Translations under genes and position numbers: made by a program
Shown here: piece after piece, positions 1 to 12,007 of the stretch
How positions within the stretch are numbered: the first letter of the stretch is position 1
Layout of the letters: every line of letters begins with the position of its first letter
The notes under the pieces: generated by a model
Seen by the model: only the letters and a program-made list of their open reading frames with translations
The model's database searches: none
What the model was told of the DNA's origin: nothing
NCBI RefSeq assembly: GCF_006711645.1
Contig: NZ_CP041247.1
Coordinates: forward strand, 2,604,001-2,668,000
From: Klebsiella electrica
GTDB taxonomy: Bacteria > Pseudomonadota > Gammaproteobacteria > Enterobacterales > Enterobacteriaceae
Length of the DNA stretch: 64,000 nt
Reading direction: 5' to 3'

Positions 1-305
1 CATTTAGCCAGTTCTAATGCAATATCCAGCACCCGATCTCCGCGCAGCATCCCATAATCCAGCATTTCAATAGGATGGACTTTAATTCCATGAACGGCCG
101 CTTTGGAGGATAAATTATTCTGCATATACTTGATTTGTGGTCCAAGCAGTACAACATGGTAGTTGGGCATATTCTCATCAAATTCAGCAACACCAAAAGC
201 CTTGATTTCGACATCCAGGTTCTTCGCTGCTGCAGCTGCTTCCATTTTTTTAACAAGCAAACTGGTGGACATACCTGCAGAGCAGCAAAGCATGATCTTC
301 TTCAT
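1..305 (-). CDS. PTS lactose/cellobiose-family IIB subunit (partial)
   Basis: Cytoplasmic phosphocarrier that passes phosphate from IIA to a sugar bound by a IIC permease; this IIB family serves cellobiose, chitobiose and lactose. The start shows the family signature MLCCSAGMSTSLLV, with the phospho-accepting cysteine at about residue 8, followed by the small alpha/beta fold (VEIKAFG, NYHVVLLGPQI). About 101 of the usual 100-106 codons are present and the frame is still open at the left edge, so the stop and probably the IIC/IIA genes lie outside. It is read away from the porin, and an exact GAAATCGATTTC palindrome sits 56 bp before its start. In this context, import and phosphorylation of cellobiose or a related beta-glucoside is the likely role; the exact sugar is inferred. 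Confidence 0.88.
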   Translation of the reverse strand, partial: MKKIMLCCSAGMSTSLLVKKMEAAAAAKNLDVEIKAFGVAEFDENMPNYHVVLLGPQIKYMQNNLSSKAAVHGIKVHPIEMLDYGMLRGDRVLDIALELAK

Positions 306-360
306 TTTTAAATCTCCATATTGATAGTTCGATGCAATATAAATCCATATCCTTTTCTAG

Positions 361-372
361 GAAATCGATTTC
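361..372. promoter_or_regulatory. LacI-family operator, exact palindrome (PTS side)
   Basis: GAAATCGATTTC is a perfect 12-bp palindrome 56 bp upstream of the PTS IIB start. The same 12-mer recurs at 9014-9025 and 9180-9191 in front of the glycosidase genes. LacI-family proteins bind such palindromes with a central CG, and a LacI-family gene lies at 3961-4974. The assignment to that regulator is inference. Confidence 0.7.
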
Positions 373-728
373 AAGAATAAATGCTATAATCGTGATGACG
401 ATCACTACGCAAATTAAAAAATACAATAAATAACAATGTGTTATAAAATCATGCTTTTCACTTAATCATCATTCCCCTTCTCGAACTGGATAGATACCGG
501 TATCAAACCCTGTTCTGTCTCATACGTAACAGGCATAACCTACTGTGCCAGCCCATCGTTCGTCGTAAAACCGACAGAAATGACAGGGGCTATCATCTGC
601 ATAACTACCTGGGAAACGCCATGAAATCGCACTTTTCATACCCTGTTCCTCGCTGTTTGCCCCGGCAAGACCTTCAGAGGCCGAGCGCTACAATTTGAGA
701 TGTGCATGAGTATCGCCAGAGACATAAT

Positions 729-740
729 GAAACCGATATC
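729..740. promoter_or_regulatory. Degenerate operator-like site
   Basis: GAAACCGATATC differs from the palindrome GAAATCGATTTC at two positions. It lies between the divergent PTS and porin genes, 150 bp from a better copy at 891-902. Weak on its own; supported only by clustering. Confidence 0.35.
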
Positions 741-837
741 TAAAAAATCAGCAACCAAAAATAAATTTCACTGAGTCGTATATTGATTGGATTTAAACAA
801 AAAATACAATAAATTCATAATGTTATTAATTATTAAC

Positions 838-859
838 AAATGTGACGAATCGCACAATT
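838..859. promoter_or_regulatory. CRP (cAMP receptor protein) binding site
   Basis: TGTGA-CGAATC-GCACA (841-856) matches the CRP consensus TGTGA-N6-TCACA with one mismatch and has A-rich and T-rich flanks as the family prefers. It is centred about 50 bp before the operator at 891-902, a usual arrangement for a catabolite-activated, repressor-controlled promoter. It probably drives transcription towards the porin, but use on the PTS side cannot be excluded. Confidence 0.6.
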
Positions 860-890
860 CATAACAAAAGGTTAAAATACAGTTGATCAT

Positions 891-902
891 GAAACCGATT
901 TC
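891..902. promoter_or_regulatory. LacI-family operator (porin side)
   Basis: GAAACCGATTTC differs from the exact palindrome at one position. It follows the CRP-like site by about 40 bp and lies near where a transcript activated by that site would start, a typical place for repression. The distance to the porin start (about 610 bp) is unusually long, so this may serve a promoter with a long leader. Confidence 0.5.
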
Positions 903-1510
903 TTAGAGATTAAATACCAATCGATGTCTAATGCTGGTTTAAGACTGCGTAAAATCCACAAACCGGTTCTAAGGTGGCATAGGCGAAGCAGGGTCACGTG
1001 AATACCCCCCTCTTATCTCATTGTGACTTTGTTAATTATGTAAAACCTCTATGAGGATATGGCTTATGAAATTGATTAATACTGGGTGATATTCATGCCG
1101 GGATATCTTTAATGTGACAACAGTGGAAATCATCAGGAGTATCAAGTCCTGAAATGAACGCTGAAGTAATGTATTGAGATTTCCCCATCGCATGGAATTG
1201 GCTTGTGAGATTGAGATTATAAAATGCGAAGTGCATTGCTGCAGAACGGTTATCGTTAACGCAGATCTCATAATCGGTATAAGTACAGCCATTATTTTTT
1301 CAAAACGATTAACACAAAAACAGTTAATCTCATTATTGATTAACTGCGCCCAGATTTTAATTTTATTTAATAAAGAAAGGACCGGACTTGCACTAACAAT
1401 AAACAAGAGCAAGGGATTAATCATCCATTGTTTAAATAGCACTACCCTATCGATGATTGTTTTTACTTAAAGACTTTTAACATATCAATATACTTTGAAA
1501 AGGGATTACT

Positions 1511-2800
1511 ATGAAAAAGAACTACCTCGCACGTTCAATCATGCTCTGCTTTGGGATCATGCTTTCCTCGCAGGTAACGGCGAGTGAAGCCATCGGTTTC
1601 CACGGATATATAAGAGCCGGGTCCCTTTTTGATGCCAGAGATAACTTTAGCAAAGCGGGTTATGCTGATGAAATTGATAAAAACATGGGCCGTCTTGGGG
1701 CTGAAGTTGACAACAGCTGGGAGGGGCGACTGAATAAACTATGGAATTTAAATGATGGTAAATCTGTCGATATTCATCTGACAATCGAATCTAAAGGTGA
1801 TGGATTACAAACCCGCGCGGCGCCGCGAGAAACGGGTATTTCTGAAAGTTATGTAGAACTCGGCGGCATCACCCCGACGGGGAAAGTATGGGGTGGACTG
1901 AGATACTACGATCGCGAAAACTATGTATTCACAACCGATTATTTCTATACCGATTACTCAGGCACGGGTATTGGGGTTAAAGACCTTGAATTGGGTGGTG
2001 GAAAATGGGATCTGGCTTACATCGTCAGTAATGATACTGACCATACTGAACGCCCGGACGGTAGTTCGGCGATCATGCACACTGTGCACTCCAGCGCAAA
2101 ATATGGCGCATGGGATTTTGAGATCGCCGCTAAACAGATGCCAGATAACTCATTCATTGGTGATGATAAAAAGTATGCAACTAAAGGCATAGAAGGAACA
2201 GTCATCTATTCCCGGGATGATTTCTTTACAGCTACGGGTGGTTTTTCAAAAGTTATTTTTCAGGCAGGTCGTGGACTAGGTTCCGGAGATCTATTGGGAG
2301 CGACCTTAACGAATACATCGATGTATCGTAAAGGCTCTCTCTACCAGAAAACATTGCAAGACGTAAATAGTGGCTACAAACCATATCAAACAAAGGTCCA
2401 GGAGGGCGACCAATCGTATCGCATGTTTGTATGGGGGGGATGGTATGGCGCGAATGTCCATATTTTACCAACCTTCACCTATCAATATAATGATTATGAA
2501 GCGGGCCACCATGACTCATGGTATGCAGCATCATTACGCTCTGTTTTCCCATTCAATGAGTTCTTCTCAATACAGACAGAAGTTGGCTATGCCGATAATA
2601 AACTTGTCGTGAACAATATGGACCAGGGCAGCCGCTCCAGTAAAATTAGTTTTGTTCCGACATTCACCGTAAATACGGGAATGGGGCCATCCCCGGAAAT
2701 TCGACTGCTCGCGACTTATGTTGACCGTAAATACGATGTGAGCTGGATGGACAGTCGCGGCGACTTCCTCGTCGGTGTCCAGGCCGATATGTGGTGGTAA
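1511..2800 (+). CDS. LamB/BglH-type carbohydrate-specific outer-membrane porin
   Basis: A 429-residue outer-membrane beta-barrel that would let oligosaccharides diffuse into the periplasm. A signal peptide (MKKNYLARSIMLCFGIML..VTAS) is cleaved near residue 25; the mature start GFHGYIRAG is typical of the LamB/ScrY/BglH family, as are the many aromatic residues for a greasy slide, the YFYTDYSGTGIG segment and a C-terminal strand ending in tryptophan (QADMWW). Family length is about 420-540. It is followed by a stem-loop and a MalM-like lipoprotein gene, an arrangement recalling lamB-malM. With PTS, GH9 and GH3 genes around it, beta-glucan oligosaccharides are the probable substrate; this is inference. 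Confidence 0.88.
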   Translation: MKKNYLARSIMLCFGIMLSSQVTASEAIGFHGYIRAGSLFDARDNFSKAGYADEIDKNMGRLGAEVDNSWEGRLNKLWNLNDGKSVDIHLTIESKGDGLQTRAAPRETGISESYVELGGITPTGKVWGGLRYYDRENYVFTTDYFYTDYSGTGIGVKDLELGGGKWDLAYIVSNDTDHTERPDGSSAIMHTVHSSAKYGAWDFEIAAKQMPDNSFIGDDKKYATKGIEGTVIYSRDDFFTATGGFSKVIFQAGRGLGSGDLLGATLTNTSMYRKGSLYQKTLQDVNSGYKPYQTKVQEGDQSYRMFVWGGWYGANVHILPTFTYQYNDYEAGHHDSWYAASLRSVFPFNEFFSIQTEVGYADNKLVVNNMDQGSRSSKISFVPTFTVNTGMGPSPEIRLLATYVDRKYDVSWMDSRGDFLVGVQADMWW

Positions 2801-2818
2801 TGACGGCAGGTCGATAGT

Positions 2819-2842
2819 AAAGCGGATCTAAAGATCCGCTTT
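2819..2842 (+). terminator. Stem-loop after porin gene
   Basis: AAAGCGGATC (2819-2828) pairs perfectly with GATCCGCTTT (2833-2842) around a TAAA loop, 18 bp after the porin stop. The T tract is short, so it may be a partial terminator or an mRNA-stabilising hairpin that sets the porin level above that of the downstream lipoprotein, as is known between lamB and malM-type genes. Confidence 0.65.
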
Positions 2843-2951
2843 ACATCTGATGTGACGCTCACCGCACTAGCATAATTAATTTTATAATAAACAGCTCTCG
2901 CTAATACTTACTCGATTTTAAAAAATTACTATCACAGGGGCTTTATTAAGT

Positions 2952-3851
2952 ATGAAAAATAAAAAATCTTCGCTAAATCTGTCTCTATTACTCATCAGCC
3001 TGATGGTGACTGGCTGTAATTCATTTGTAGCATCGACATCAGGTATGAATGCTCATTCATTTCAGGAACAGGTCGCCATCGACCGAAATGCTCTTGAGGC
3101 AAAGACTGCTATCGATAAACTCAGTAATATCAATTATATCCCTGTCCAGGGCTATAGTGTCATAGCCCAAATCAATGAAAACAGCCAGGTTTTTTCTTTT
3201 AACTCAGAGAAAAGTTATGTTGCGGCCTATTCTGTCGAAGGCAAACAGGCAGGTCGCTCTGTAAAACTAAGCTCGCCATTAGATTTTAGCGTGTTCATTC
3301 CATCGGTGATGATTTTAGATGAAAACTTTAACGTTATTAATGTAATAAAAAGTAGCCATTTCCCCTATAGCGAGGATTCATTCGGCGCCAACCTCTACAA
3401 AGGCTCATTCTCATTACCGGATGGTTATACAAAACTGTATTTGTTAATTTTTACAACCACGAAAGACGCTTCCGGAAGTACTGTTGTCAACAATGAATTG
3501 TTACAAAATAGCATGCGTTACGATCGGGTTTCAGATGTTGGTAAATTTTCTAAGCTCGCTGTCCCCCATTCAACCACGGGCCGGATAAAGCTTGAACTTA
3601 TAAAAAGTGCTGATGAGCGTTATGCTCCTGACGAAATCCCGGCAAGGACGCCTGTTTGTCTGCAAAATACACCCAGACCTGTTGCCGGTATTAGCGCGCA
3701 ACAATATTATGAAATGATACGAAAATCTTTATCTTTCAAAGACTATGAACAAGCGATCGGCTATGTTCGTGAAGCTGAATGTTCCGGATTTACAAAAGCC
3801 AGAGATGTTTTCTTTTCTGTGATTGAGGATAATGAAAGGAAAAATTTATAG
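2952..3851 (+). CDS. MalM-like periplasmic lipoprotein
   Basis: A 299-residue lipoprotein of the maltose-operon MalM family. The lipobox LMVTGC places the acylated cysteine at residue 22; a linker is followed by a beta-rich domain (VIAQINENSQVFSF, DFSVFIPSVMILDENFNVI, YLLIFTTTKD) and a C-terminal helical segment (AQQYYEMIRKSLSFKDYEQAIGYVREAECSG is the last recognisable block). MalM is periplasmic and its precise role is unknown. The start has AGGGG upstream at 2936-2940. It lies 151 bp after the porin gene and ahead of the LacI regulator, so it probably belongs to the same regulon. Finding it with a beta-glucoside rather than a maltose system is unusual. Confidence 0.8.
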   Translation: MKNKKSSLNLSLLLISLMVTGCNSFVASTSGMNAHSFQEQVAIDRNALEAKTAIDKLSNINYIPVQGYSVIAQINENSQVFSFNSEKSYVAAYSVEGKQAGRSVKLSSPLDFSVFIPSVMILDENFNVINVIKSSHFPYSEDSFGANLYKGSFSLPDGYTKLYLLIFTTTKDASGSTVVNNELLQNSMRYDRVSDVGKFSKLAVPHSTTGRIKLELIKSADERYAPDEIPARTPVCLQNTPRPVAGISAQQYYEMIRKSLSFKDYEQAIGYVREAECSGFTKARDVFFSVIEDNERKNL

Positions 3852-3960
3852 TTGAGTACTCACCACATCTATCGTACCCTGCTCTATGGGTAACCATGAC
3901 GATTCTATTGAACCATTAAATGTAATAGAGAGCAACGTGAAGAACGTGAAGAAAGCCAGG

Positions 3961-4974
3961 ATGAAAAGCACGACAGTTTATGATATTGCTCGTGTCGCAG
4001 GTGTCTCTGCAAGTACCGTTTCTCGTATATTGACAGGATCGGCTAAAGTTGCTGAAGAGAAGCGTATTGCGGTTGAGCAGGCTATAAAGGAGTTAGATTT
4101 CCGGCCCAATCTCATGGCGCAATCATTAAAGAGCGGCCAGTCAATGACGCTTGGCGTGCTGACACAGCATCTTGATAGTCCATTTTCTAATGAAATGTTG
4201 CGTGGTGTGGAAAAAACCCTTGAAGGAACCGGTTACGTTCCTGTTGTTGTGAGCGGTCACTGGAAATCGCAGCAGGAACTCGAACGTATGCAGTTATTAA
4301 TAGATCGACGCGTGGATGGCATAATTATATTAACCGGGCACGTTAGCCAACAGAGTCTTATCGAATTATCTCTTCAGGTCCCTATCGTAGCAGCAGGCCA
4401 TGATATTAATACAGCGCAGGTCCGTTCGTTTAATGTCAATAATAGCCTCGGCGGTTATATGGCAACGCAATACTTATTAGATCTCGGGCATCGAAAGATT
4501 GCGCATATTGTTGGCAAGACGGATCAAAAGGATGCGATTGATCGTCTCAATGGCTACCGTCAGGCGCTGAGCATTGCCGGTATTGAGTATAATCCCGACC
4601 TCGTTGTGCAAGGTGACTTTAGCGAAGAAGGTGGTCGTCAGGCGATCAAGAATCTGGTCGCCAGTAATATTGATTTCAGCGCCATATTCTGTGCCAATGA
4701 TCAAACTGCATATGGCGCAATACTTGGCCTCAAAGAGGCTGATTTAGATGTGCCTGATGATATTTCCATCATTGGCTTCGATGATTTGCCCTTTTCAACA
4801 TACAGCAACCCTCCCCTCACCACCATTAAGCAGCCAATTTATGAAACCGGGGTTAAGTTAGCGCAGACGCTGCTTAGCTTAATTAACGGTGGTGATGAAG
4901 TAAAAAACGAAAATGAATCCCTGCTTCCTGAGCTACAGATTGTCAACCGGAAAACTGCTCTGGAATTCAAATAA
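3961..4974 (+). CDS. LacI-family transcriptional repressor
   Basis: A 337-residue sugar-responsive DNA-binding regulator. Helix-turn-helix at residues 4-24 (VYDIARVAGVSASTVSRIL), hinge helix around 45-60 (FRPNLMAQSLKSG), then a periplasmic-binding-protein-like ligand domain with typical blocks LGVLTQHLDSPF, DGIIILTG, HRKIAHIVG, AIFCANDQTAYGA and ISIIGFDDLPFS. The frame is open back to an ATG at 3886 and a GTG at 3937; I chose 3961 because the HTH normally begins a few residues after the start and no ribosome site precedes 3886. It lies in the middle of the PTS/porin/GH9/GH3 set, whose promoters share GAAATCGATTTC, so it is the obvious candidate to bind those sites. The inducer is probably a beta-glucoside; not shown. 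Confidence 0.9.
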   Translation: MKSTTVYDIARVAGVSASTVSRILTGSAKVAEEKRIAVEQAIKELDFRPNLMAQSLKSGQSMTLGVLTQHLDSPFSNEMLRGVEKTLEGTGYVPVVVSGHWKSQQELERMQLLIDRRVDGIIILTGHVSQQSLIELSLQVPIVAAGHDINTAQVRSFNVNNSLGGYMATQYLLDLGHRKIAHIVGKTDQKDAIDRLNGYRQALSIAGIEYNPDLVVQGDFSEEGGRQAIKNLVASNIDFSAIFCANDQTAYGAILGLKEADLDVPDDISIIGFDDLPFSTYSNPPLTTIKQPIYETGVKLAQTLLSLINGGDEVKNENESLLPELQIVNRKTALEFK

Positions 4975-5050
4975 GTGACCATTGATGAGTGAGCTTTTTG
5001 GTCAACTCAACTTTAGCGAAAGTTCATGGATGTTTTACATTCTCTAATCA

Positions 5051-5359
5051 TCATCCATATCGAGAAAAACCTTTCCTTGTGAGCCAGGAAGGTTTCATTT
5101 TATGCTGCCAGTCTACTCTCCTTCCGGCCTGAAAATTAATGCGGGCCTTCCTCCTCCAACTGATCTCGGCTAAATAATGGAGTGGTGTTTCCGGGATCTC
5201 ATTGATTGTCGAAGGGAAACGTCCTGTGTTCTGATAAAACTTAAGCTGAACAGCAAATGGCAGGTGATTTCTGGCGGGCTTGGTTTTGAGCCGTCGGTTT
5301 TCTTCAAACCTCAGACTACAGTGTTCTTTCAGCTCATCAATATCCCAGATCCGTTTCAC
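5051..5359 (-). pseudogene. Tn3-family transposase N-terminal fragment (DUF4158)
   Basis: A 102-codon remnant whose middle (PFAVQLKFYQNTGRFPSTIN) carries the N-terminal DUF4158 motif of Tn3-family transposases, which are normally about 950-1000 residues. After about residue 75 the resemblance stops (basic, unrelated tail), consistent with a frameshift or deletion, and no catalytic DDE region is present. It lies just upstream of a DJ-1 gene with a resolvase-like remnant on the other side, so an old Tn3-type transposon probably decayed here. An imperfect stem-loop at about 5068-5095 followed by TTTCATTTT could serve as terminator for the LacI-family gene. Confidence 0.65.
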
Positions 5360-5386
5360 TTTGCTGTCCCGTTATCAGTAACCGCA

Positions 5387-5989
5387 TCAGGCTTCGGGAA
5401 ACATCCCGGATGTAAACGCCGCTTTCATTGCTTCAATTTCCTTTTCCTGAGCAGCATTTAATGCGGCAAGCATATTGCAGGTAAAATCAAGAAAACCGAC
5501 GCCGCTGGCGGTTACCAGATTGCCATCACGAACAGAAGGTGCATTTAGGTACCTTGCTGCTCCGTTATAGGCTGCTCCCGCCTTGTTCTGTAAGTATGTC
5601 AGCCCATTTGAAGTATGGTCGACATCATTGAGAAAACCATTTGCGCCCAGGAACGCTGAAGCATCGCATATTGCACCGACCACAATCTGCCGCTCCATCG
5701 CTCGTTTTACCAGGGGCACAACTCGCTGCGCCTCTTTCCCCCACCAATTCGTACCGCCTACCAGCACCAGAGCGGCATAATCGTCAGGCAAAGTTTGGAA
5801 AGTATAATCCGGCAGAGAGCGAACTCCTCCGATTGACATTACTGGCCCATCGTCGGCAGCAACGGTCCTGACTTCATATTGCGGCTCCCAAATACCGAAT
5901 CCCCGGCGCAGTCCTGGAGCCAGCAGAGCAAACTCCCAGTCGGCATATTCTGGGATTAGCACAAACAGTATTTCGTTATTAGTATTCAT
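5387..5989 (-). CDS. DJ-1/PfpI family protein (class I glutamine amidotransferase-like)
   Basis: About 200 residues with the flavodoxin-like DJ-1/PfpI fold: EILFVLIPEYADWEFALLAPGL at the N terminus, the VRTVAADDGPVMSIGG strand, YAALVLVGG, and the nucleophile elbow VVGAICDASAFLG with the cysteine at about residue 107. Family members include protease/chaperone-like stress proteins and isonitrile hydratases; the substrate cannot be told here. Of two close ATG codons (5995 and 5989) I prefer 5989, because GGGAG lies six bases upstream of it. It sits between Tn3-type remnants inside an otherwise sugar-related locus, so it may be a passenger of the lost transposon; this is inference. Confidence 0.8.
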   Translation of the reverse strand: MNTNNEILFVLIPEYADWEFALLAPGLRRGFGIWEPQYEVRTVAADDGPVMSIGGVRSLPDYTFQTLPDDYAALVLVGGTNWWGKEAQRVVPLVKRAMERQIVVGAICDASAFLGANGFLNDVDHTSNGLTYLQNKAGAAYNGAARYLNAPSVRDGNLVTASGVGFLDFTCNMLAALNAAQEKEIEAMKAAFTSGMFPEA

Positions 5990-6041
5990 GGACATCTCCC
6001 TCTCATTTGTAAGCGAATGCGGCCACTTGTTGTGATAATTT

Positions 6042-6227
6042 TTATGTCTGTCTGATCTCAGTCATCCGGTGTCTGGCGAGAAGACGCACCATGGTGGAAG
6101 GGTAAACCCGGAACAGGCAGGCGGTATCAGCGCCTGTTTTCTGCCCCGACGAGACGAGCAGCTGGCAGATATCGCACCTATACCCGGTCACTACCCCTCG
6201 TTGCCCGCCAACGGCGAATAAGCGAAC
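6042..6227 (-). pseudogene. Resolvase/invertase C-terminal helix-turn-helix remnant
   Basis: An open frame without a good start, ending at 6042. Its translation contains SGQKTGADTACLFRVYPSTM followed by VRLLARHR, which resembles the C-terminal DNA-binding helix-turn-helix of serine resolvases (typically KTGADTARLF.VHP.TVSRLL). The catalytic N-terminal domain is absent. Together with the transposase fragment at 5051-5359 it suggests a decayed Tn3-like element. Recognition is by eye only. Confidence 0.45.
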
Positions 6228-6291
6228 TCAGTGACTGCCCTCACGCATCCCCATTCCATGACCCGTTGAACTCACACTCATTAGCAGCCAT

Positions 6292-6325
6292 AAAAAAAGG
6301 TGCGGCATATCATCATGCCGCACCT
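6292..6325 (-). terminator. Rho-independent terminator of the GH9 gene
   Basis: On the minus strand AGGTGCGGCAT pairs perfectly with ATGCCGCACCT around a six-base loop and is followed by a run of T (A run at 6292-6298 on the plus strand). It lies 18 bp after the GH9 stop codon. Confidence 0.9.
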
Positions 6326-6343
6326 CATATTATATTTTCAATT

Positions 6344-8683
6344 TTACTTATTCAGATAGCCTTCATCAATATAGCTGGTTGTCCAGAAGAAAGGAGCATT
6401 CCAGTTAATCGTCACTTCATTCAGAGTCCATGCGCCAATTTCATCTTTCCAGCACGTTTGCCCGACACAATGTCCTTTGAGACTGGCAGCGATAGGGTCG
6501 CTGAAATTTATCGAGTTTGGCCCGCCGGACATTACGCCTGGCGGCACAAGCGGTGATGACGGATCGATCTGCTGTGCCCAAAATCGATGGTGTGGATTTT
6601 TGAGCGGCCGGCTACCGTAACCGGATACATAGGATTGATCAAGCGGGTTGCGACCGAGAATATAATCCATGGCGTCAGACATCGCCTGGACATATTTGCG
6701 GTCTCCGGTGAAATCATGCGCCAGACCAAGGAAAATACTCCGGTTCATCAGATTCGAGTTAGAACCCCATGGATACTGCTCAGCAGAATAAGGGATCAGA
6801 TATCCTTCGGTCTGAACGCTTTGCGCGTAGGCATTCGCAGTATTAATAATGGTCTGTCTGGCTTTGCTAACTTCTTCAGCTGGAAGATTGTTAGGCACCA
6901 TCGCCAGGGTAATGGTACCGGCAGCAGAGACATCCTGCCAGAAGAGATCGCCCGTCGCCTCTTTATCGCCCTTAGGACTGGCGAGGTAGTAGCGCGAATG
7001 TTTTATCGCATCGAGATATTCCGCTTTACCTGTTGTGGTAAACAGCTCAGCCGCAGCCCAATAGAACTCATCATCCACTTTGGTATCATCATACGGGCCA
7101 GAACCAACAAAGTTATCGTAGGCATAAATATTCGGATGTTTATTAGCCGATTTCCATGCTTTCTCTGCCGCAGTGAGACAGCGTTTCGCATAGGCCGCGT
7201 CCGTATCTTTCCAGACACGTGCACATTGCGCCGCCGTCGCCGCCAGATTTAAGGTCGCTGCAGTACTCGGCTGACTTAAATAACGCGGTTGAGGATCTTT
7301 ATGTGGAGGAAGCGGCATGCCGGTCCAGGCCTCATCGGCCACTTTGTGGAACGCCATCCCTGAAGCATCGATCTCTGTCAGCCTGAGCGCCTCAAGATGC
7401 GCGGATTGATCTCCGACGGGCACCCACGCCTTCTTGCCATCAGGGACCTGCATTGCCAGCATGAAGTCCATCATCCAGCGCGCTTCATCCAGAAGATCGT
7501 TCTTGCTATTGTGATTTTCTGGGATTTTTACCTTACCATCGCGAAATGCACTTTCCTTAATATTGCGAGAGTATTTCTCGTGCTCAAAGAAATTCATTAA
7601 GGTCCATGTGGAAATACCCCCGTTTACCACGTATTTACCCTGGTCCCCCGCATCATACCAGCCACCGGTAACATCCAGTTTATAATCACAGCCAGGCCAT
7701 TTATTACCTTTGGCGTCGGTCTTATTAAAGCAGGTTACTCGCTCTGATGGATGCCCCGCCGGACGAGCAAGATCGGGGCGTTGAACATACTCTTTCTCAA
7801 TAGCAATACCGCTACGCTGCTGGTAGAAGAAAGAGAGCGCATCGTACTTCAGCTGATGATACAGTTTGCTACTGATATTAAATGGATGGCTCTTTTTACC
7901 ATCAACAACCAAAGTTAATTTGTCTGCTTCTTCAGTGTACTGGCTGAAATCGATAATATGCACGTTCTCATTCGAGGCACGATTAATACCGAAAGGTTTA
8001 GTCTGACCTTCTGCGACTTTCGTCCCCACACTATTGAGCAGAGTCCAGTTCAATGGCTGCGTCGAATCACTCACCATGGTTGCTCGTTTCAAGGCATGCG
8101 GCAAGTACCCGACCTGGTTTACCCTAATCGGCGCAAAGTTCGTTGCTAACTTCAGCCGGGGCCCTTTCAAGGAAACGTTGCTAAGACAAACCGTTGTCGG
8201 AGACTGGGTACCCAGCTGTAGCTGGAACTGGGCCTTCTCATCTGCTGATTTCGGCGTGAATTTAAAATTAAAATCTTTTCGCGTTTCGTTTAATTCAACG
8301 TCTTGCACGAAATAGTTGGTATATGGCGCGCCATCTTGTTGAACCAAAATCTTGGCGCTAATCGGCTTCTTCGTGACTGCTGTAAAGCTAAGATTATAAG
8401 ACTGACCTTCGGCCAGCGGGATCCCGGACTGCGCAAAAATGACATCCCAGGGGTTCGCCCCGCCATTCGTGAAGGTGAAACATCCCATACTGTCTACCCG
8501 CTCCAGCTGGCCGCCTGCGCCCCACCAACCATCCGTCCCAGAGGCGAAACTACCATTATTCACTAATTCCTCTGCCGGGCTGGCACTCGGATCATTCGCG
8601 CTGCCATCACCGTTGACACAACCCTGTAAAGCAAAAAGACTTGAGAAAATGAGTGAGAACTTAACTGTTCTGCGTATTTTCAT
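6344..8683 (-). CDS. Glycoside hydrolase family 9 endoglucanase, lipoprotein
   Basis: A 779-residue secreted beta-1,4-glucanase that would cut cellulose or mixed-linkage beta-glucan. A signal peptide ends in the lipobox ALQGC (Cys22; Val at +2 favours the outer membrane). Residues about 38-175 look like a CBM4/9-type carbohydrate-binding domain (NNGSFASGTDGWWGAGG), about 180-270 a CelD_N Ig-like domain (IRVNQVGYLPHALKRA), and 275-770 the GH9 catalytic domain with GWYDAGDQGKY (Asp344/Asp347, base and nucleophile region), the NPHHRFW signature and NEVTINWNAP (Glu756, acid). The start at 8683 is preceded by GGAGAG; the frame extends slightly further without a ribosome site. Divergent from the GH3 gene with shared operators between. 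Membrane-anchored GH9 enzymes are uncommon in Enterobacteriaceae. Confidence 0.92.
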   Translation of the reverse strand: MKIRRTVKFSLIFSSLFALQGCVNGDGSANDPSASPAEELVNNGSFASGTDGWWGAGGQLERVDSMGCFTFTNGGANPWDVIFAQSGIPLAEGQSYNLSFTAVTKKPISAKILVQQDGAPYTNYFVQDVELNETRKDFNFKFTPKSADEKAQFQLQLGTQSPTTVCLSNVSLKGPRLKLATNFAPIRVNQVGYLPHALKRATMVSDSTQPLNWTLLNSVGTKVAEGQTKPFGINRASNENVHIIDFSQYTEEADKLTLVVDGKKSHPFNISSKLYHQLKYDALSFFYQQRSGIAIEKEYVQRPDLARPAGHPSERVTCFNKTDAKGNKWPGCDYKLDVTGGWYDAGDQGKYVVNGGISTWTLMNFFEHEKYSRNIKESAFRDGKVKIPENHNSKNDLLDEARWMMDFMLAMQVPDGKKAWVPVGDQSAHLEALRLTEIDASGMAFHKVADEAWTGMPLPPHKDPQPRYLSQPSTAATLNLAATAAQCARVWKDTDAAYAKRCLTAAEKAWKSANKHPNIYAYDNFVGSGPYDDTKVDDEFYWAAAELFTTTGKAEYLDAIKHSRYYLASPKGDKEATGDLFWQDVSAAGTITLAMVPNNLPAEEVSKARQTIINTANAYAQSVQTEGYLIPYSAEQYPWGSNSNLMNRSIFLGLAHDFTGDRKYVQAMSDAMDYILGRNPLDQSYVSGYGSRPLKNPHHRFWAQQIDPSSPLVPPGVMSGGPNSINFSDPIAASLKGHCVGQTCWKDEIGAWTLNEVTINWNAPFFWTTSYIDEGYLNK

Positions 8684-9013
8684 TGTAAACTCTCCGAATT
8701 GAGGCACCCTAAACCTAATGATTCAACAAAATAGATCACAGAAAAATCAATCAGCAATTAAATAGATTGATGCAACTCCTTTCGCCGCCTTCTGATGAAT
8801 GGAATTGTTTACGTGCTAAATATTTTGTAGTTTTTGTTGATTTACAAATTCATATACACAGCCCATCCCGGAATTACTATCAACGCCAGTCGGCAGTCAT
8901 TAAGCAACCTCAGTAAATATAGCTGACCATATGATTTCCATAAGAAACTACATGTAAAGCACCTTGTGTCATGTACGACTCCATTGCCATCATAGCTACA
9001 TCACCACTCATCT

Positions 9014-9025
9014 GAAATCGATTTC
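9014..9025. promoter_or_regulatory. LacI-family operator, exact palindrome
   Basis: GAAATCGATTTC, identical to 361-372, placed 193 bp before the GH3 start and 331 bp before the GH9 start. Together with the copy at 9180-9191 (166 bp apart) it could allow repression of both directions or looping by a tetrameric repressor. Confidence 0.72.
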
Positions 9026-9179
9026 TAGATATCCGATCGATTTTTGTGATTGCCATCTATGTTTAGAAGATGAGCCTTGCAGTTCCTTCAGCAAGGCATA
9101 GATTGCGAAGGTTGTTCATGCTCTTATAGCTCACGAATGCGTCATGCATAAAACATGAACACGGCATAGACATGCATGT

Positions 9180-9191
9180 GAAATCGATTTC
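9180..9191. promoter_or_regulatory. LacI-family operator, exact palindrome next to GH3 start
   Basis: GAAATCGATTTC, 27 bp before the GH3 ATG, where bound repressor would block the promoter or the transcript start. Third exact copy of this 12-mer in the window. Confidence 0.75.
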
Positions 9192-9217
9192 TATGAAACT
9201 TACTCTGGGGTTAGTGT

Positions 9218-11944
9218 ATGAAAATCATGCTGGGGGCTAACTGCGCGCTGGCTGCCTTATTGACCGCCAATGTCGCGTTGGCATCGAATGAAGTTGCCGT
9301 TGCGCCTTACTTTTCCGACTGGCCTACGATACATAGCGCCATTGCCAAAGATGAAATACTTGAGAATAAAGTCAAAGACATTCTTGCAAAGATGACCCTT
9401 GAAGAAAAAATTGGTCAAATGCTGCAGCCCGACTTTCGGGAAATCACGCCTGAGGAAGTGGTTCAATATAAAATTGGCTCCGTTCTTAACGGCGGCGGAG
9501 GTTGGCCGGATAACAATAAGCATTCCCTGGCCCGTAGCTGGGTCACTGAAGCAGATAAATACTGGAAAGCAACGGATAAGGCTTTTGCTGGCCGTGGTTT
9601 CAGAATCCCCTTTATGTGGGCTACCGATGCTGTTCATGGCCATAACAACGTCTTCCAGGCCACACTCTTCCCACATAATATTGGCTTAGGGGCCGCCCGC
9701 GATCCGGATTTAATTTATAGAATTGGTCAGGCAACGGCACTCGAAGTTGCGGCCACAGGTCTTGACTGGACCTTTGCTCCCACTGTCGCTGTACCACGTG
9801 ACGATCGCTGGGGACGCACTTACGAAGGCTATTCTGAGGACCCGTCGATCGTTTATGCCTATGCAAAAGAGATGGTCAGGGGTCTACAAGGTTCTGCATC
9901 TGACCTGAAGGGACAACATCACGTTATTTCCACCGTCAAGCATTTTGTTGGCGATGGCGGTACCCTGTACGGTGTTGATCGCGGCGATACCCATTATTCA
10001 GAGGATGACCTGCGTAATATACACGCGGTAGGATATTTTTCAGGCCTGGATGCCGGCGCGCAGGCCGTGATGGCCTCGTTTAATAGCTGGAAAAACGATA
10101 AAAATTCCGCGCAGGGAATGAAGGCCGGGAGCGAGTATAACGGTAAACTGCACGGCAGCTATTATATGCTCACCCAGGTACTTAAGGACAAAATGGGTTT
10201 TGATGGCGTAGTCATATCCGACTGGAACGGCCATAGTGAAATATCAGGTTGTAGTATGGGGGCCTGCGAAGCAGCAGTCATGGCTGGAATAGATATTTTC
10301 ATGGTCACGGCAAGAAAGGACTGGATGTCATTTCGGACCAGCTTACTTGATAGTGTAAATAACAAAACTATTCCCGTTTCCAGAATTGACGATGCTGTCA
10401 GTCGCATCCTGAGGGTCAAAATGCGGGCCGGTATGTGGGATAAACCGATGCCGTCTCAGCGCAGTCTTGCAGGAAGTCAGAGCATTCTTGGAAATCCTGA
10501 CCACCGCGCCCTGGCACGGGAAGCGGTACGTAAATCATTAGTTTTACTAAAGAACAAGAATAATATCCTGCCCCTTAGCCGGGATCTTAAAGTCCTGGTG
10601 GCGGGTAGCGCCGCGAATGATATTAGCAAGCAAATTGGCGGCTGGAGCCTCACCTGGCAAGGGACGGAGAATAACTTATCGGATTTTCCTGGCGCCGTTA
10701 CCATCGTGGGGGCAGTGGAGAAATCCATTGGCAAACACAACGTCATGACCCTCTCCTCAAGCGAGTTGGATCTTAAAGAAAGGCCCAACGTGGCGATTGT
10801 TGCCATGGGTGAAGACTCTTATGCAGAGTGGTTAGGTGATATTCCTGATAATAAAACGCTATCTTACTCAGAGCTGAAGGCTGGTTATTCCGGTGATGTC
10901 AAACTATTAAGGCAACTCAATAAAGCCGGCATCCCGACGGTTGTTATTTTGCTCTCTGGCAGACCGCTCTATGTCAACGAAGAGATCAATCTTGCCGATG
11001 CATTCGTTGCCGCCTGGTTACCCGGGACCGAAGCGCAAGGCATTACCGATGTTATTTTCCGTGATGCTAACAACACGATAAATCATGATTTCCAAGGAAC
11101 GTTGTCGTTCTCATGGCCAGCACAAAAATGTGCGACCACCATCAACAGAACGCCAACCAATATCGCTGAATGGCAGCGCCCGGAATTTGAGCAAAAGCCG
11201 GACAAAGAGAATGTATTATTTAATTTCGGTTACGGATTGTCCTACAACTCGCCTTCACGACCGGCGGCGAATTATCAAGATCTGGATCGCTTACCGCTTG
11301 ATAAGCGTCGTCTGGGGTGCCGGGAGTTAAGCATGGAGAAATCGCCAGTCACCACCACCCGACTTGAGCTGTTCGGTGAAAAGGCTTCTGAAGAGCATCG
11401 TTTAAGAATGGGAGATGAGAGTAACTGGACCGGTACTGAGGTATCGGTAAACGGTAAATCCGCAATGCAGTATATTAGCGTGCGCCCTGTCGATTATAAA
11501 AGGCAGCAGGATGCACGTGAGGTCACATTTATGGGGACCAGCGAGAGTACCGGGGCCTCTGTTCAATTACAGACAACCAATGTTAAAGGGATCAACCGGA
11601 ATAATTACCTCAAGGCGAACAGTAACTTGATGGTAACTTTGCGCCTTAAGAAAAACCCCGACCGCAAAATGGAAATCGGTATGCAGTGCGGTTGGCCATG
11701 CGCCTCCTCCATTGCCATCAATGATACCTTAAATACTCTCCCACTAAATAAATGGGTCACGCTAAGCATTCCGTTAACCTGTTTCAAAGAAAATATGGAT
11801 TTTTGTAAAACCAATACGCCATTTATTCTGACGACCACGGCGAATGCCCAACTCGATTTGGGATTAATTAACTGGACGCCTGCGAGCATGAAGCCGGAGA
11901 TGGATAACATCGTCCGGGTCAATTGTGATGGAACCCCAAGGTAA
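9218..11944 (+). CDS. Glycoside hydrolase family 3 beta-glucosidase/exo-glucanase
   Basis: A 908-residue secreted exo-acting beta-glucosidase that would release glucose or cellobiose from beta-glucan oligosaccharides. Signal peptide with cleavage after about residue 23 (ANVALAS). The GH3 N-terminal TIM barrel shows AVHGHNNVFQAT, RDDRWGRTYEGYSEDP, TVKHFVGDGG and the nucleophile motif VVISDWNG (Asp335). The GH3 C-terminal sandwich follows from about 440 (SLVLLKNKNNILPLS, VAWLPGTEAQG-like block as FVAAWLPGTEAQG), then a C-terminal beta-sandwich from about 700 to 908 resembling the ExoP-type galactose-binding-like domain. Domain order matches marine exo-1,3/1,4-beta-glucanases. It is divergent from GH9 and likely shares its regulator; it would act in the periplasm on products entering through the porin. 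Confidence 0.92.
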   Translation: MKIMLGANCALAALLTANVALASNEVAVAPYFSDWPTIHSAIAKDEILENKVKDILAKMTLEEKIGQMLQPDFREITPEEVVQYKIGSVLNGGGGWPDNNKHSLARSWVTEADKYWKATDKAFAGRGFRIPFMWATDAVHGHNNVFQATLFPHNIGLGAARDPDLIYRIGQATALEVAATGLDWTFAPTVAVPRDDRWGRTYEGYSEDPSIVYAYAKEMVRGLQGSASDLKGQHHVISTVKHFVGDGGTLYGVDRGDTHYSEDDLRNIHAVGYFSGLDAGAQAVMASFNSWKNDKNSAQGMKAGSEYNGKLHGSYYMLTQVLKDKMGFDGVVISDWNGHSEISGCSMGACEAAVMAGIDIFMVTARKDWMSFRTSLLDSVNNKTIPVSRIDDAVSRILRVKMRAGMWDKPMPSQRSLAGSQSILGNPDHRALAREAVRKSLVLLKNKNNILPLSRDLKVLVAGSAANDISKQIGGWSLTWQGTENNLSDFPGAVTIVGAVEKSIGKHNVMTLSSSELDLKERPNVAIVAMGEDSYAEWLGDIPDNKTLSYSELKAGYSGDVKLLRQLNKAGIPTVVILLSGRPLYVNEEINLADAFVAAWLPGTEAQGITDVIFRDANNTINHDFQGTLSFSWPAQKCATTINRTPTNIAEWQRPEFEQKPDKENVLFNFGYGLSYNSPSRPAANYQDLDRLPLDKRRLGCRELSMEKSPVTTTRLELFGEKASEEHRLRMGDESNWTGTEVSVNGKSAMQYISVRPVDYKRQQDAREVTFMGTSESTGASVQLQTTNVKGINRNNYLKANSNLMVTLRLKKNPDRKMEIGMQCGWPCASSIAINDTLNTLPLNKWVTLSIPLTCFKENMDFCKTNTPFILTTTANAQLDLGLINWTPASMKPEMDNIVRVNCDGTPR

Positions 11945-11972
11945 ATCCTGATGTAAGTCTCTATGGCTAACG

Positions 11973-12007
11973 CTATCCGACAGTTTCAGTCTATGGCTGT
12001 CGGATAG
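11973..12007 (+). terminator. Stem-loop after the GH3 gene
   Basis: CTATCCGACAG (11973-11983) pairs exactly with CTGTCGGATAG (11997-12007), 29 bp after the GH3 stop. There is no T run, so it may need Rho or act as an end-protecting hairpin. It also marks the change from AT-rich to GC-rich sequence. Confidence 0.55.

Follow-up and report, generated by a model that had tools for sequence, protein, structure and literature searches.

A putative self-regulated beta-glucan utilisation locus with a probable LacI-type operator of its own on a low-GC mobile island of Klebsiella electrica

Introduction

The first 12,007 nucleotides of a 64,000-nucleotide stretch of the Klebsiella electrica genome (contig NZ_CP041247.1, positions 2,604,001 to 2,668,000; hereafter the window) carry genes for part of a phosphotransferase system (PTS), a LamB-type porin, a LacI-family regulator and two glycoside hydrolases of families GH9 and GH3, together with repeated copies of the 12-bp palindrome GAAATCGATTTC. 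The question raised by this locus is whether the palindrome is the operator of the LacI-family protein and whether the genes around it form one inducible pathway for beta-glucan, as a preliminary description of the sequence had proposed. The comparisons reported here lead us to put at about 0.8 the probability that the locus forms a mobile and self-contained regulon for beta-glucan utilisation in which the LacI-family protein binds and represses through GAAATCGATTTC.

Results

Five copies of the palindrome were found at the positions given in the preliminary description, three exact (361-372, 9014-9025 and 9180-9191), one with a single mismatch (GAAACCGATTTC, 891-902) and one with two mismatches (GAAACCGATATC, 729-740). 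Putative operator 1 (361-372) lies 56 bp upstream of the start of the PTS IIB gene, operator 2 (891-902) upstream of a porin-malM-lacI unit, operator 3 (9014-9025) upstream of the GH9 gene and operator 4 (9180-9191) 27 bp upstream of the GH3 start. An even palindrome with a CG centre thereby stands before the target units and before the regulator's own unit. A genome-wide scan for the 12-mer, which the preliminary description had named as a check, found the exact form three times in the 5,785,203-base genome, each time within the locus and never at an unrelated site, while the backwards control of GAAATCGATTTC gave no exact copy genome-wide.

Across 148 other genomes of the family, whose printed sizes sum to 467.5 Mb, 72 exact sites were counted, with 54 of the 148 genomes holding any. 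Using the rate from 92 genomes of at least 3 Mb (68 sites, 416 Mb), 0.95 exact sites would be expected in a genome of this size and 0.0025 in the 15.1 kb locus. The Poisson probability of three or more exact sites in the locus is approximately 2.5e-9, a value which is purely descriptive because the locus was picked for its sites. Two of the 148 genomes likewise hold three exact sites, but these are scattered and the closest pair is 51 kb apart. Among the matches listed, 14 one-mismatch places lay outside the locus, 13 of them inside mechanical open reading frames (ORFs) of at least 100 amino acids and the last in an intergenic region whose neighbours, judged by eye, have no evident sugar role, and on the evidence of these one-mismatch places a wider regulon beyond the locus was rejected.

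To follow the site in relatives of the locus we used Klebsiella plasmids, E. coli genomes, a plasmid search with the LacI protein and 34 genome-contig loci found through GH9, the first 13 of which (L039-L051) entered the comparison while the other 21 were left out; the comparison set comprised 22 loci. A site with at most one mismatch was present in all 13 loci whose LacI is at least 70% identical (the LacI gene being broken in one, L007), and a contig fragment without lacI (L042) carried such sites as well. None of the eight loci which had no LacI ortholog (LacI at most 44% identical, or none) had a site. When five diverged loci were compared, GAAATCGATTTC was the top palindrome, with 13 exact copies and representation in all five, and no other of the 37 12-bp palindromes listed after sorting occurred more than once; at one mismatch GAAATCGATTTC was counted 25 times and the runner-up five times. 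In Aeromonas the gene order is rearranged, and the sites are still found before IIB, GH9 and GH3 (L043) and on the porin side (L075). The proposal of one regulon under one regulator is borne out to this extent, since site and LacI ortholog stay together in loci that have diverged and been rearranged, the site is the leading palindrome in five of these, and its exact form is confined to the locus in the K. electrica genome.

Ten further genomes or records (six genomes and four records from the plasmid collection) held 29 exact sites, 26 of them in the locus. Two of the other three were on the same contigs as the locus, and the third was in Raoultella terrigena near fragments of another IIC gene. 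In this species a second operator pair, one exact and one with a single mismatch, was observed before broken PTS IIC-like fragments (L081 5001-5622), a possible lost target. The locus on the K. pneumoniae plasmid pBM337-1 (L007 8921-23171) is annotated as many short ORFs, which reflect either decay or sequencing errors, and three exact operators persist there.

Eight loci were aligned, their intergenic regions sharing 50-80% identity with the window. Operators 1 and 3 were each identical in seven of the eight with one change in L040, whereas operators 2 and 4 lie inside runs (890-904 and 9179-9192) that are invariant in all eight. Only one further invariant run of at least nine bases was found in the two aligned intergenic regions, at 387-395, overlapping a CRP-like site. 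The weak possible secondary site at 729-740, not significant alone, was identical in five loci, had a further change in two and was absent from L040. Looping between paired operators was considered, with spacings of 162 and 166 bp in the window; the GH9-GH3 pair is, however, only 142 bp apart in L040, and as the spacing varies we do not claim looping.

CRP-like sites, scored against what we take to be the CRP consensus, were observed beside operator 1 (391-406, two mismatches) and operator 2 (TGTGACGAATCGCACA, 841-856, one mismatch), and matches with these same mismatch numbers were present in all eight aligned loci. Since two-mismatch matches are common (seven matches at two mismatches or fewer in positions 1-12000 of the window), the site at 391-406 is weak alone and that at 841-856, the sole one-mismatch match in this region, is the better of the two. 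An operator and a CRP-like site before both IIB and the porin would fit repression of CRP-activated promoters. A search for structured RNA gave a single Rfam match below threshold, to a snoRNA family (E 0.46), which was taken as chance.

Protein-family profiles upheld the gene identities first assigned to the PTS IIB, LamB-type porin, LacI, GH9 and GH3 products, and added a MalM-like protein as well as three genes just outside the window which the preliminary description had lacked. The IIB gene of lactose/cellobiose type (1-305, minus strand, PF02302) begins an operon-like run that continues on the left of the window, on the same strand, as IIC (PF02378), GH1 (PF00232) and IIA (PF02255). The IIA, IIB and IIC genes thus stand side by side, all over the Pfam cut-off, and IIC is also over the TIGR00410 cut-off, its best and equal scores being those of the cellobiose and lactose/cellobiose models. 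IIB has the segment CSAGMST and IIA the segment HAQDHL, which we presume to have catalytic roles. On the plus strand follow the LamB-type outer-membrane porin (1511-2800, PF02264, 2.8e-57), the MalM-family protein (2952-3851, PF07148, 8.3e-18), which has an apparent lipobox VTGC by eye, and the 337-residue LacI-family regulator (3961-4974, PF00356 and PF00532 over cut-off), whose DNA-binding region is conserved among the orthologs.

The GH9 protein (6344-8683, minus strand; PF00759, PF02927, PF02018) combines its catalytic domain with a CBM4_9 and an Ig-like domain and has an apparent lipobox LQGC by eye. It aligned with CbhA (1rq5/1ut9) over the Ig-like and catalytic domains, DVTGGWYDAGD being kept and NEVTINWN aligning to NQITVNWN of 1rq5. 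We take the Asp pair and the Glu to be the catalytic residues, and 1rq5 to be a Glu-to-Gln mutant. The score against the CelK model was below the cut-off (690.5 of 1700 bits), and a laminarinase carbohydrate-binding module (1gui) was among the matches of the N-terminus. By sequence, GH9 resembles a CbhA-type cellobiohydrolase. The GH3 protein (9218-11944, plus strand; PF00933, PF01915, PF18559) ends in an Exop_C domain and has, by eye, an apparent ordinary signal peptide. With 3rrx (1.3e-182) and 3usz as its closest solved relatives, and with VISDWNG and GEDSYAE kept in alignment to ExoP (presumably contributing the catalytic Asp and Glu), it resembles an ExoP-type exo-1,3/1,4-beta-glucanase. 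The nearest solved relatives of GH1 were 4b3k (1.5e-148), named a beta-glucosidase, and 5foo (7.6e-148), named a 6-phospho-beta-D-glycosidase, with both of which it shares the segment AYKNRYG. GH1 is probably a 6-phospho-beta-glycosidase, although its best NCBIfam model is plain beta-glucosidase (408 bits) and the second 6-phospho-beta-galactosidase (336 bits), both below cut-off.

The best solved relatives of the locus LacI were RbsR (194.6 bits) and a CcpA-type protein (179.9), with the AscG ligand domain at 124. Orthologs are rare. At E 1e-60 three of 295 family genomes gave a match, the K. electrica genome and two with proteins only 39-40% identical, and at E 1e-75 there were 31 of 394 genomes of the order, of which the ortholog class comprised the genome itself and one at 70%, the rest being 42-48% identical. 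The motif was also followed into the neighbourhoods of five such 42-48% proteins of the order (L101-L105); outside long ORFs these held two CG-centred 14-bp palindromes, which lie in L101 but not upstream of its regulator, and none in L102-L105. An AscG-like 14-mer, TGAAACCGGTTTCA, was absent from the genome, although the 12-bp core of this sequence is present next to another PTS-like gene. Elsewhere on the chromosome an IIC-like gene (L027 3-2551; cellobiose type by eye) and a LacI-family gene are transcribed divergently, and the region that separates them holds GAAACCGGTTTC and AAAATCGGTTTC. As GAAACCGGTTTC differs from GAAATCGATTTC in the base on either side of the central CG, this pair looks like a sister system whose operator is changed at two bases.

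The locus forms a mobile island of low GC content, which moves between gut and plant-associated bacteria. Positions 1-12007 have 45.6% GC compared with 57.8% in the rest of the window, which is part of a 5.27 Mb contig, and this places the locus on the chromosome in K. electrica. At least 80% of the query was covered in six of 72,556 plasmid records and in seven of 5,426 E. coli genomes, one more E. coli genome reaching 70%; of the other E. coli matches two had part of GH3 only and seven only a short unrelated stretch. The locus is found on plasmids of K. variicola, K. oxytoca and K. pneumoniae, and a stretch of pKP187 matched 91% of positions 1-12007 at 86.3% identity. In E. coli FG92-1 and P276M it lies near an integrase at a tRNA-Phe gene, while no tRNA was found in the stretch fetched around the locus of E. 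coli 205.

Between operator 2 and the porin the window has a 0.6 kb gap (903-1510, plus strand, 35.5% GC). In the seven enterobacterial loci checked this gap measures about 0.6 kb (0.48 kb in L040), whereas all three inspected relatives, a metagenome-assembled genome (MAG) of the Aeromonadaceae (L041), Aeromonas caviae (L075) and a Tolumonas MAG (L078), have in its place an ORF of 417-482 amino acids with a lipoprotein-type start. Both scanned ORFs (L041 9034-10287; L078 3358-4740) contain the Exop_C domain that ends GH3, and the product is a candidate glycan-binding protein. Within the gap of these seven enterobacterial loci the relatives have no ORF of at least 60 amino acids, and the window shares none with them; gap ORFs of 40-59 amino acids recur in five relatives and not in the window. 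A tblastn search for a remnant of the lipoprotein gene in four loci gave nothing beyond chance, and a search of the genome itself, run without a positive control, was empty. Loss of this gene would explain the long porin leader, although the gene may instead have been gained in the Aeromonadaceae/Tolumonas lineage.

Other neighbours of the unit were observed in these relatives. In Aeromonas (L043 3207-6600) a chemoreceptor and a solute-binding protein directly follow GH3 on the same strand, which suggests chemotaxis to digestion products under the same operator. The Aeromonadaceae MAG (L041, L080) has GH10, GH16 and a sugar-type ATP-binding cassette transporter, with three sites in the region dividing the transporter from the porin unit. 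In the K. electrica genome itself a Mig-14 family gene adjoins the PTS genes (L008 13658-14551), and the corresponding position is annotated as GNAT on L004 and as Mig-14 on L006. In the window the lacI-GH9 gap is approximately 0.6 kb longer than on pKP187; the stretch 5149-6159 contains a DJ-1/PfpI-family gene (5387-5995) together with stretches like a Tn3-family transposase region and a plasmid recombinase region, and is probably a small mobile-DNA insert.

Discussion

We propose that LacI (3961-4974) most likely binds GAAATCGATTTC before the PTS operon (IIB-IIC-GH1-IIA), the porin-malM-lacI unit, GH9 and GH3 and acts as their repressor, while CRP would activate at least the PTS operon and porin-malM-lacI. 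As lacI is downstream of the porin and malM genes it would be autoregulated. GH9, an apparent CbhA-type lipoprotein, would cut the glucan outside or at the cell surface to short oligomers, which the LamB-type porin would admit, and the predicted periplasmic ExoP-like GH3 would trim the longer ones; the lactose/cellobiose-type PTS would import and phosphorylate the disaccharide, to be split in the cytoplasm by GH1. The enzyme roles in the pathway first suggested match those of the closest solved relatives; the order of the steps is our reconstruction, and the cytoplasmic step of GH1 had been missing. We expect a cello-oligosaccharide as inducer, with cellobiose-6-phosphate formed by the PTS as the most plausible candidate. 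This proposal follows the CelR precedent, the effector of CelR/AscG-type cellobiose regulons of gamma-proteobacteria being given as cellobiose-6P (PMC4052901).

Several observations weigh against this interpretation. Five sites at two mismatches or fewer are unremarkable for the window (mean 3.05; 22 of 100 shuffles reach five), and 407 such places occur genome-wide compared with 127 for the backwards control, which leaves the site at 729-740 meaningless alone. These loose counts are what would favour the repeated palindrome being a chance product of AT-rich DNA; nonetheless all three exact sites of the genome are in the locus, where 0.0025 would be expected, and the palindrome is conserved across diverged loci, so that the genome-wide and family-wide counts of exact sites rule this origin out to within a very small residue of doubt. 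The eight site-less loci form a weak control because most target genes are missing there too: none has the porin, MalM or GH3, and seven share just GH9, beyond weak LacI and GH1 similarity. Nor are the 13 site-bearing loci independent, many being close relatives, which is why the five diverged loci were compared. The porin and GH9 operators lie a long way upstream of their genes, at 609 and 331 bp, promoter-like matches were about as frequent as in shuffles, making the promoter scans uninformative, and eight of nine locus proteins were below every NCBIfam cut-off; the NCBIfam ranking of GH1 likewise does not favour a phospho-enzyme. The genome has 28 matches to the LacI-family helix-turn-helix, and one of these, in the second LacI-IIC pair with its sites GAAACCGGTTTC and AAAATCGGTTTC, makes cross-binding possible.

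The last point leads to the suggestion that the sites are read mainly by another host LacI, such as that beside the second cellobiose-like PTS gene, with the locus LacI in a minor role. We consider this improbable. It would be consistent with GAAACCGGTTTC being two bases away and GAAACCGATTTC of operator 2 half-way between the two forms, yet site and locus LacI are conserved together in Aeromonadaceae, Klebsiella, Raoultella and E. coli, and the site is missing from seven Vibrio loci with GH9 but no locus LacI (other targets being missing there too). The locus is, moreover, carried on plasmids and islands, a setting in which one would expect it to have a regulator of its own. A more serious contender, although still on the unlikely side, is a real regulon aimed at beta-1,3 or mixed-linkage glucan and not at cellulose or cello-oligomers. 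The names of the GH3 relatives 3rrx and 3usz (exo-1,3/1,4-beta-glucanase), the GH16 and GH10 genes added in the Aeromonadaceae relative and the laminarinase module 1gui all point that way, whereas GH9 is closest to a cellobiohydrolase (1rq5/1ut9) and IIC scores best with cellobiose and lactose/cellobiose models. Such a target alters the substrate and not the mechanism.

Within the proposed LacI-controlled regulon, an outline of its history can be put forward, though we would give it somewhat less than even odds: a self-regulated cellulose/beta-glucan island passed from an Aeromonadales-like source to Enterobacteriaceae, on Klebsiella plasmids and tRNA-Phe islands of E. coli, with its private operator and there lost a glycan-binding lipoprotein gene, leaving the long porin leader. 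If true, the island links a PTS with a lipoprotein of cellobiohydrolase type and a porin dedicated to the pathway, and works in any host with CRP and PTS.

The proposed system would be a LacI-controlled sugar regulon, a known type; no account of its operator, its regulator or the whole assembly was found among the open-licence papers searched. In the maltose regulon lamB is followed by malM, and a LamB-type porin is followed by a MalM-family protein here too, but beside beta-glucan genes and with both proteins scoring well short of the maltose model cut-offs. Polysaccharide utilisation loci of Bacteroidetes combine exported hydrolases, outer-membrane entry, periplasmic trimming and sugar-controlled transcription, and work alike in outline; the present locus differs in using a porin, a PTS and a LacI regulator, and no SusC/SusD-type gene was found among the locus proteins scanned. 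For LacI-family regulators a palindrome centred on CG and autoregulation have been described as typical features (PMC4052901), and the CelR/AscG regulons share with the one proposed here the LacI family, the even CG-centred palindrome, autoregulation and a cellobiose pathway. The regulon here differs from them by including exported hydrolases and an outer-membrane porin; its regulator, with RbsR and CcpA as best solved relatives, may or may not group with CelR/AscG. Fouts et al. (2008) listed celK, celD and a GH1 gene on plasmid pKP187 of Klebsiella 342 as cellulosic genes and suspected lateral transfer (PMC2453333). These belong to the same locus as described here, celK and celD corresponding, we infer from names and adjacency, to GH9 and GH3 of the pKP187 locus (L004). 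The parts of that account covered here mention neither a regulator or operator nor the porin, the MalM-like protein or a link to a PTS (PMC2453333). The earlier statement that no such system had been described consequently holds for the assembled, regulated system within the literature searched, whereas the hydrolases had been noted on pKP187 in 2008.

The operator can also be used as a signature by which the regulon may be recognised in further genomes. E. coli and Klebsiella are generally regarded as unable to attack beta-glucan polymers, and a mobile, self-regulated locus present in a few of them could let such a strain feed on plant glucans.

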